Shown: piece by piece, positions 118 to 3,342 of the stretch
Numbering within the stretch: the stretch's first letter is position 1
Layout of the letters: each line of letters begins with the position of its first letter
Assembly (NCBI GenBank): GCA_040757115.1
Contig: JBFLYA010000117.1
Location: 1 to 12,402 of the forward strand
Source of the DNA: a bacterium
GTDB taxonomy: Bacteria; UBA9089; CG2-30-40-21; SBAY01
Direction: 5' to 3'
DNA length: 12,402 bases
Translations under genes and position numbers: made by a program
Notes under the pieces: model-generated
Told to the model about the DNA's origin: nothing
What the model saw: only the letters and a program-made list of their open reading frames with translations
Database searches by the model: none

Positions 118-283
118 GATGAAAATTAATAGGACGCAGATTTACAGGATTAACAGGATTTTAAAGAAAAACAAAACATCAAGAAACAATAAGGAAATAA
201 CTATAGAAATACAATAATAAAAAATTAATTTTAATCCTGTTCATCTGCGAAAATCTGCGTCCCATAACCTATTTTCAGGAGAA
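118..283. repeat. Hairpin unit A between GATGAAAAT and CTATTTTCAGGAGAA
   Basis: A long imperfect inverted repeat. The left arm (about 132-161, beginning GGACGCAGATTT) matches the reverse complement of the right arm (about 231-262, ending AAATCTGCGTCC) over roughly 30 bases with a few mismatches and one gap. An AT-rich loop of about 70 nt separates the arms. The unit is bounded by GATGAAAAT (118-126) and CTATTTTCAGGAGAA (269-283), which themselves pair through TGAAAAT/ATTTTCA. It has no coding potential and no transposase. Confidence 0.8.
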
Positions 284-323
284 ACCAGGTATAAACCTGC
301 GGTTCACAAACGAGGATGAAAAT
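269..323. repeat. 55-bp direct repeat, copy 1
   Basis: This segment starts CTATTTTCAGGAGAA and ends GATGAAAAT. It matches 406-459 with seven substitutions and one single-base gap by eye. It separates hairpin A from hairpin B. A small internal hairpin (CAGGT/ACCTG, 286-290 and 295-299) is present in this copy but is not kept intact in copy 2. Confidence 0.8.
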
Positions 324-420
324 TGAGCATAGAGATTAGAGATTGGAGATTAGAGATTAGCAAGAGTGCAGGTTCTAATTCACTAATTCTCTAATCTCTA
401 ATTAACTATTTTCAGGAGAA
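315..420. repeat. Hairpin unit B between the same boundary sequences
   Basis: The left arm (331-360) is made of repeated AGATTAG/AGATTGG words. The right arm (375-403) is made of CTAATTCT and CTAATCTCT words and is the imperfect reverse complement of the left arm. The loop is short, around 361-374. The unit is bounded by GATGAAAAT (315-323) and CTATTTTCAGGAGAA (406-420), exactly as in units A and C, yet its arms share no sequence with theirs. Confidence 0.8.
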
Positions 421-459
421 CCGGGCATGAACCTACGGCTCACAAAGGAAGATGAAAAT
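406..459. repeat. 55-bp direct repeat, copy 2
   Basis: The second copy of the segment separating the hairpins. It carries AGGAGAA (414-420) six bases before an ATG at 427. This resembles a ribosome-binding context and matches the real one at 561-573. Confidence 0.8.
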
Positions 460-567
460 AGTGATAGGAGATAGAAGGTAGGAAGTAAGGAGATAGGCGT
501 GAGGAGTGATGTTTTCTTTACTTTCTACTTTCTACTCTCTACTTTCTACTTCCTATTTTCAGGAGAA
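451..567. repeat. Hairpin unit C, ending in the antiporter ribosome-binding site
   Basis: The left arm (464-497) is purine-rich (words such as GATAGGAGATAGAAGG). The right arm (516-556) is pyrimidine-rich (CTTTCTACTTTCTACT words) and is the imperfect reverse complement of the left arm. The boundaries are again GATGAAAAT (451-459) and CTATTTTCAGGAGAA (553-567). The closing sequence supplies the AGGAG Shine-Dalgarno of the antiporter, so in RNA the hairpin would lie immediately upstream of the ribosome-binding site. Confidence 0.8.
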
Positions 568-1737: not shown

Positions 1738-1742
1738 AGAAG

Positions 1743-1784
1743 AAGGCTGAAGGCTGAATCCAATTTCCTTCAGCCTTCAGCCTT
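1743..1784. terminator. Perfect 15-bp hairpin between convergent genes
   Basis: AAGGCTGAAGGCTGA (1743-1757) is the exact reverse complement of 1770-1784, with a 12-nt loop. It begins six bases after the antiporter stop. TTTAAATT follows on the + strand and a CTTCTTCTTTAT run follows on the - strand, so it can act as a bidirectional terminator. The right arm overlaps the last codons and TGA stop of nadB. The arm is itself a doubled GGCTGAA word, the quasi-repeat style seen in the other hairpins of the window. Confidence 0.65.
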
Positions 1785-3342
1785 TAAATTCAATATGCCT
1801 TTTGAATCGGGCATCATCTTTGGCAGGGAAATCCTGGCGGTAATGAACGCCCCTTGATTCTTCACGCATAAGTGCTGCTTTCTGAATAAGTTTTCCGATG
1901 ATTAACATATTTTGTAATTCAAAACCATCCGAGGTTGAAAATTCTTTAGCCAGAACATACGAAGACCAAAAGTCTATTTCTTTTCCTGCATCGACGAGTT
2001 TATCCTTTTCTCGTTCAATACCCACATCTCGCCACATTAAACTTTTGAGTGCATTGCGGACATCTTCTACATCTAAGTCTTTCAGGTATTTACCTTCAAA
2101 GATATAAGAGATATGTGGAAATGATTTTATCTTATTTTTTGAACACCCGGCTCTATATCCAAAAACCAAACATTCTAAAAGCGAATTGCTGGCTAAACGA
2201 TTTGCACCATGGATACCAGGGTTGGCACACTCACCGCAAGCATATAATCCTTCAATGTTAGTCTTGCCCTCTAAATCTGTTTTAATCCCACCAATGGTAT
2301 AATGAGCCGTAGGTCTAACAGGTATCAAGTCTTTCTTTATATCAATGTCGAAGGAATGGCAGGTTTTCATTATATTTGGAAACCTATTTTGCAGGAATTC
2401 ATCATCTAAGTGGGTCACATCTAAATATACATGGGTATCATTGGTTAATTTCAATTCAGTCAGGACACTTCTGGAGACGACATCCCTTGGGGCTAATTCT
2501 AAAGCGGGATGATATTTAGCCATAAATCTTTCGCCGTATTTATTTTTTAATATTCCGCCTTCTCCCCGGACGGCTTCTGAGATTAATGCCCTGGCCGCAC
2601 CGGCAATATAAAGTGTTGTTGGATGAAATTGGATAAACTCCATATCCATTAAACTTGCACCAGCACGATAAGCCGCCGCCATCCCATCGCCAGTGGCAAT
2701 AATGGAATTAGTTGTCTCACGATAAATCTGACCAACCCCACCAGTTGCCAGAATTGTTTGACTGGCAAAGATTATTTCTCTCTTCTTACCTTTTGACTGG
2801 ACAATTGCTCCGTAACAGATATTATCTTCGGTTAGTAAGTCTATGAGAAAGGTATTTTCTAAAATAGAGATATTTTTTTTGAGTTGAACCTTTGCGAGGA
2901 GTATTCGTTCAAGTTCTGTGCCAGTGGCATCACCTCTGGCATGGATTATTCTTCGGGTAGAGTGTCCTGCTTCCTGGGTAAATAGTAGTTTTCCTTCTTT
3001 GCAGTCGAAATTTGCTCCCCAATCAATTAAATTCTGTATTTGTTGAGGACCTTCTTCAACTAATACTCTAACTGCTTCCTCATTACACAGCCCATCACCT
3101 ACTTCTATGGTATTCTGTAAATGGCTTTCATAGGTATCATTTTCAGTTAAAACTGCGGCGATACCGCCTTGAGCAATCTCGGTATTACACTGTTTCAATT
3201 TATCCTTAGTAATGATTAGCACCTGACCTTCATCAGCGGCTTCAATTGCCGCCCGGAGCCCCGCCGCACCACTACCAATGATTAAAATGTCTGTTTTGAT
3301 AATTGGTAATTTGTTGGTATCAAAACTGACTAAATATCTCAC
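1777..3342 (-). CDS. nadB: L-aspartate oxidase
   Basis: An FAD enzyme of 521 residues that oxidises L-aspartate to iminoaspartate, the first step of de novo NAD synthesis; NadA then condenses the product with dihydroxyacetone phosphate to quinolinate. It has an N-terminal FAD fold with GSGAAG (23-28) and CNTEIAQGGIAAV (52-64). The NadB active-site residues are visible: Glu124 in QEAGHS, His240 in QFHPTTLY, Arg286 in APRD and His347 in TAHYTIGG. The second FAD motif GLYACGECANPGIHGANRLASNSL (365-388) and the C-terminal RGVHYRQDFP complete the family pattern. These distinguish it from succinate dehydrogenase flavoprotein. The start is GTG at 3342, whose G is shared with the TAG stop of serA, so translational coupling is likely. 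nadA and nadC are not in the window. The last codons lie inside the 1743-1784 hairpin. Confidence 0.93.
   Translation of the reverse strand: MRYLVSFDTNKLPIIKTDILIIGSGAAGLRAAIEAADEGQVLIITKDKLKQCNTEIAQGGIAAVLTENDTYESHLQNTIEVGDGLCNEEAVRVLVEEGPQQIQNLIDWGANFDCKEGKLLFTQEAGHSTRRIIHARGDATGTELERILLAKVQLKKNISILENTFLIDLLTEDNICYGAIVQSKGKKREIIFASQTILATGGVGQIYRETTNSIIATGDGMAAAYRAGASLMDMEFIQFHPTTLYIAGAARALISEAVRGEGGILKNKYGERFMAKYHPALELAPRDVVSRSVLTELKLTNDTHVYLDVTHLDDEFLQNRFPNIMKTCHSFDIDIKKDLIPVRPTAHYTIGGIKTDLEGKTNIEGLYACGECANPGIHGANRLASNSLLECLVFGYRAGCSKNKIKSFPHISYIFEGKYLKDLDVEDVRNALKSLMWRDVGIEREKDKLVDAGKEIDFWSSYVLAKEFSTSDGFELQNMLIIGKLIQKAALMREESRGVHYRQDFPAKDDARFKRHIEFKG

Follow-up and report, generated by a model that had tools for sequence, protein, structure and literature searches.

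Hairpin cassettes upstream of a Na+/H+ exchanger-type antiporter gene belong to a dispersed, genus-restricted family of probable mobile elements with exchangeable cores

Small non-coding mobile elements are common, and to our knowledge there are few cases in which both empty sites and exchange of a central hairpin inside unchanged ends are seen between close species. PATEs, the palindrome-associated transposable elements of Haloquadratum, are non-autonomous and derived from IS605 (PMC3119063). The hairpin cassettes described here share with PATEs the absence of terminal inverted repeats, near-terminal palindromes lying farther from the 5' end than from the 3' end, a length too short to code, a target of 4-5 bp on the 5' side and loss of the core between repeated ends (PMC3119063). 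They differ from PATEs in that the exchangeable core as a whole forms the 3' palindrome, in their long tandem arrays, in ending with a copy of the target pentamer, and in that no IS605-type parent was found and no TnpB in the five genomes searched. Because the cognate IS605 enzyme is missing from these searches, the family is not classed as a PATE. The cassettes are short, non-coding, hairpin-forming, high in copy number and mostly intergenic as in MITEs (PMC10969869), but lack both terminal inverted repeats (TIRs) and the ordinary target duplication of free sequence, and their anatomy appears to resemble IS605-derived PATEs more closely than TIR-type MITEs. One cassette is inserted in frame in a protein gene and adds 49 amino acids, reminiscent of the ~150-bp palindromic elements of Rickettsia (PMC10969869), from which the family differs in its mostly intergenic positions, its fixed GGAGA-like target and its exchangeable cores; the conserved peptide typical of the Rickettsia elements is absent, as reading frames vary among units. 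Dispersed hairpins, clusters and Y1-type genes in the genome are shared with REP/REPIN-RAYT systems (PMC3733652, PMC3116915), whereas the cassettes carry no GTAG/CGTC tag and an intact RAYT-like Y1 gene (L236 and L237, in both species, about 1300-2200) lies between its own, different GTAG-tagged hairpins, TGTAGTGAGGGTCTTTAGACCC. By analogy the arrays also recall integron attC cassette arrays, with directional, exchangeable units and structured sites known by shape rather than sequence; unlike integron cassettes the units hold no genes, no platform integrase was seen and the arrays are many and dispersed.

Within the window, which is the whole 12,402-nt stretch of DNA analyzed, GATGAAAAT has three occurrences (118, 315 and 451) and so does CTATTTTCAGGAGAA (269, 406 and 553). 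These are the sole copies; all six are on the + strand, and their coordinates agree to the base with the original prediction. The interiors between these boundaries (127-268, 142 nt; 324-405, 82 nt; 460-552, 93 nt) all fold back on themselves, with DNA folding of 122-271, 315-412 and 451-559 giving z = -5.1, -3.3 and -2.4 against dinucleotide shuffles, and the arm sequences of the three hairpins are mutually unrelated, both as anticipated. A module of ~50 nt between successive hairpins is itself conserved and has its own small stem-loop, making copies 2 and 3 full units and copy 1 not (Table 1). This covarying stem-loop had been missed in the original prediction, and copy 1 lacks it. The notion of a cassette holds, with limits shifted by about 30-50 nt, the natural unit beginning after GGAGA and ending in GGRGA. 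The core of copy 1 is of the CAGGATTAACAGGATT / ATCTGCGAAAATCTGCGTCC type, and the repeat on its left is also present in L019, L022, L036, L063 and L113/L134, there directly left of other cores. Unit 2 is near-identical (98%) to a unit at C131, and the core family of unit 3 comprises 59 collected units. The last copy supplies the ribosome-binding site of the antiporter gene, as had been proposed. No relative of the antiporter was found among GTDB contigs, and the gene is absent from the sister genome, hence there is no ortholog of this locus to compare. A stand-alone GGCTGAAGGCTGAA / TTCAGCCTTCAGCC hairpin occupies window positions 1738-1786, between the antiporter gene and a convergent L-aspartate-oxidase-like gene; the same arms form a core of the cassette family at L022, L039 and L058.

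Table 1. Positions of the cassettes and associated features in the window
Feature	Start	End	Strand	Description
Left flank of copy 1	1	117	+	Different ~110-nt repeat ending in ...ACAATATATATTATACGAGGAC; contig starts inside the repeat
Copy 1, incomplete on the left	118	282	+	GATGAAAAT at 118-126, core at 127-268, right end ATTTTCAGGAGA at 271-282
Unit 2, full, 137 nt	283	419	+	AACCAGGTATAAACCTGCGGTTCACAAACGAGGATGAAAAT, core of AGAGATT heptads, ATTTTCAGGAGA
Unit 3, full, 147 nt	420	566	+	ACCGGGCATGAACCTACGGCTCACAAAGGAAGATGAAAAT, core of TACTTTC/GATAGAAGG heptads, ATTTTCAGGAGA
Shine-Dalgarno sequence, GGAG of the last end motif	562	565	+	5 nt before ATG at 571
Na+/H+ exchanger-type antiporter gene, 388 aa	571	1737	+	PF00999, E=1.1e-44
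Empty site (iii)	6195	6220	-	AGAAGGAGAAATACTGAACTTTATAC, upstream of an aminotransferase gene; sister L157 has a 3-unit array exactly there

About 150 modules were collected from ~100 stretches read in the window's own genome and that of the sister, and are summarized by the unit AACGnnCA-(small stem-loop with covarying arms)-CAAAkGRGGATGAAAAT-(hairpin core)-ATTTTCAGGRGA, of about 90-210 nt. As a repeat this is written AACGnnCA-(TG..stem-loop..CA)-CAAAkGRGGA-(TGAAAAT..core..ATTTTCA)-GGRGA, in which the TGAAAAT/ATTTTCA pairing recognized in the window forms the foot of the hairpin. The small stem-loop is placed 8-9 nt from the left end and, in nearly all types, the core hairpin stops 5 nt short of the right end; the two ends, AACGnnCATG... 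and ...ATTTTCAGGRGA, do not match each other in inverted orientation, leaving the unit without terminal inverted repeats. At least 58 different stem-loop sequences occur, nearly all paired, with a mean of 5.03 contiguous pairs compared with 3.23 +/- 0.20 after shuffling of the 3' halves (maximum 3.81, n=1000). This covariation may reflect selection for structure, and template-switch repair of imperfect palindromes can also yield it without selection. Grouped by core, 143 units form 15 clusters, 9 of them with at least two members, and about a dozen unrelated types. The largest clusters combine with 25 different stem-loops, and core and stem-loop are therefore shuffled against each other. Most cores fold strongly, although those of a 41-nt type hardly fold; the conserved ends and replaceable core of the original prediction are borne out, a strongly palindromic core being usual rather than obligatory given these few ~41-nt cases. 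A peptide-coding role for the module (Shine-Dalgarno, ATG and short open reading frame) was considered and rejected, as the frames are not conserved; the arrangement is therefore taken for mimicry or coincidence. Imperfect repeats of 7-8 nt make up six unrelated hairpin arms, the match at 7 nt being 0.74-0.92 in five, with one of 9-nt repeats.

The 21-base pattern of the unit-unit junction, TTTTCAGGRGAAACGNNCATG, has 102 matches in the genome of the window (462 contigs, 4.3 Mb), 72 in the single congeneric species used as the sister comparison and 0 in 17 other genomes of the phylum. The end motif ATTTTCAGGRGAAAC, with 1 mismatch allowed, gives 184 matches in the genome compared with 3 for a reversed-pattern control, and a DNA search with one unit locates at least 54 places in its own genome among the matches listed. 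The boundary pair thus recurs genome-wide and encloses about a dozen unrelated interiors. Tandem arrays of 1-6 units each are dispersed over more than 60 sites, array counts referring to sampled stretches around matches rather than a census. Both genomes are fragmented metagenome assemblies, and contigs often stop about 110 nt from an end motif because assemblers break at such repeats. Two viral-contig matches to the 21-mer proved to be only a phage ribosome-binding site plus ATG. Sequence comparison confirms the window hairpins as one example of a dispersed, genus-restricted, putatively mobile small element.

The flanking DNA of the two species is ~95-98% identical, and three clean empty sites were read. 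A single 147-nt unit in L035 is matched in sister L195 by uninterrupted CACCTTGAGAAACACCCAG, the native site being TTGAGAAACACCC. Sister L151 has two units (328 nt) where this genome (L165) reads uninterrupted ATATTCAGGAGATACAG. The third is in the window itself (Table 1), reads AGAAGGAGAAATACTG and has an 8-nt difference beside the site. A fourth native context is a repeat with CTTTGAGAAAC in all its remaining copies, placing the left GAGAAAC in the host, and at L068/L138 the sister retains one end motif alone. In the core swap at L017/L127 the left flank and stem-loop module are identical at 99 of 101 positions and the right side at 297 of 300, while the two cores, 77 and 95 nt long, belong to unrelated types. 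L040/L125 and L013/L136 each differ at one site in both module and core. None of 17 orthologous sites has an equal array, some of these being without alignable upstream flanks, where absence of an array is less certain. In the strongest cases, L035/L195, L151/L165, L017/L127 and L040/L125, a single contig contains both flanks and the whole unit. The empty sites, and the different cores at one site, that were to be sought in related genomes were both found. The alignments show units inserting as discrete blocks and stacking in tandem, with arrays gained, lost or rebuilt between species, and show replacement of cores while flanks and stem-loop stay in place.

Insertions are located at GGAGA-like pentamers. 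About two thirds of the left native pentamers are GGAGA (AGGAG register merged), and TGAGA, GGTGA, GGAAA and others also occur. GGGGA is rare at left native pentamers (3) and frequent at right ends (20 of 86) and internal junctions (47 of 90, with GGAGA at 38), which favours reading the right copy as the 3' end of the element. In L035 the right pentamer copy has G where the native base is T. The left pentamer is that of the host, and the right GGRGA looks to be the element's own 3' end rather than a classical target duplication. At L030, GGTGAA is present at the left end and also at an inner junction, a pattern that suggests target copying. The right ends lie just before an open reading frame of at least 100 codons in 38 of 81 cases, compared with 16 of 102 for other non-coding GGRGAA sequences; at start codons the 3' end of the element acts as the ribosome-binding site, always in sense. 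Selection against damaging insertions is sufficient for this excess, and targeting of translation starts is not needed. With its 3' end ...CAGGRGA, an element inserted at a Shine-Dalgarno sequence still leaves one ahead of the gene, so insertions there are tolerated and accumulate. With the target in the translation start region and restored by the element, the 5' leaders of many genes can be changed without breakage. Among the arrays read, all are intergenic except for the in-gene case, a unit in L035 (C11, about 1164-1310 of the reverse strand) placed antisense and in frame in a PF01902 diphthamide-synthase-type gene that is uninterrupted in the sister.

Of the three origins first considered, a non-autonomous mobile hairpin family is the best fit, and the cassettes are probably a genus-restricted element of this kind with a GGAGA-like target, tandem stacking and core replacement. 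An enzyme acting in trans would recognize the folded ends, formed by the 5' stem-loop, at 8-9 nt from the left end, and by the 3' hairpin foot TGAAAAT/ATTTTCA, at a distance of 5 nt from the right end. Such recognition would explain a conserved foot while the stem-loop sequence and core vary freely. The most likely substrate for movement would be single-stranded DNA, as for IS605/PATE or attC-type recombination, and cores are probably exchanged when dispersed copies recombine or undergo gene conversion following breakage at the hairpin. Y1 transposase genes are present, none flanked by cassette ends, and no interior over about 330 nt, as for an autonomous copy, was seen among the loci read. 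The family offers a way to test how hairpin elements that lack coding capacity move, and whether break-induced gene conversion replaces large palindromes. A more speculative proposal, which we consider rather unlikely, is that an undescribed recombinase reads folded single-stranded ends by shape, integrates hairpin units at Shine-Dalgarno sequences throughout the genome and reshuffles cores as a gene-free cassette system. If true, the leaders of many genes would be continually rewritten with ribosome-binding sites kept.

The family could spread and swap cores with no dedicated enzyme, through homologous or microhomology-mediated recombination via the GGRGAAAC repeats flanking each unit, by template switching or by gene conversion once SbcCD-type nucleases have broken the hairpin. 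Every junction is within the short identity GGAGA(AAC), arrays are made of whole units, sister L138 is reduced to a single end motif and the cores of L017/L127 are swapped between identical flanks, all consistent with such a route. However, new sites have only 5-8 nt in common with the element, the stem-loop arms covary, and about a hundred copies in one genus with none in relatives resemble an active element; an enzyme-free origin is rather unlikely. It is similarly doubtful that an attC-like site-specific recombinase acts on excised circles, with attP as ATTTTCA-GGRGAA-ACG and attB as GGAGAA, and repeated integration growing the arrays. Directional tandem arrays of interchangeable units, the conserved junction, the structured sequence-free stem-loop and GGTGAA at both positions in L030 accord with this, as do tyrosine recombinase genes numbering 10 and 10 in this genus compared with 1 and 4 in the sister genus. 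Against it, no integrase, the tyrosine recombinase genes listed included, was seen beside an array, the more than 60 sites offer no single platform and no attC-type R/L box pair was noticed in the stretches read.

An RNA-level regulatory leader, either riboswitch-like or a processing array kept for gene control, had also been suggested, and about half of the right ends are directly before start codons, in sense, and supply the Shine-Dalgarno sequence. This reading fits poorly because no array is equal at the 17 orthologous sites and several are empty; the functions of the downstream genes are unrelated, one unit is antisense within a coding gene and the window has no Rfam match at gathering score, making the RNA leader very unlikely. 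A one-off local tandem duplication, or an assembly artefact suggested by contig ends about 110 nt from end motifs, is scarcely credible, being refuted by dispersion over more than 100 sites genome-wide in two independently assembled genomes and by single-unit differences with both flanks in one contig (L017/L127, L040/L125 and L035/L195).

Other repeat families accompany the cassettes in this genome. A distinct family is bounded by terminal inverted repeats, GTAATGGGTCAG.../...CACTGACCCATTAC; it is present in many copies, including L053 (302-500), L009, L016 and L019, and has related inner ends AATGAAAA...ACTTTCAGGAGAATCCCCC with its own heptad hairpin core. Another inverted-end family, GTAAGCGTTCAGG...CCTGAACGGTTAC, at L240 and L242, contains purine/pyrimidine hairpin cores and suggests that cores are exchanged generally in this genome.
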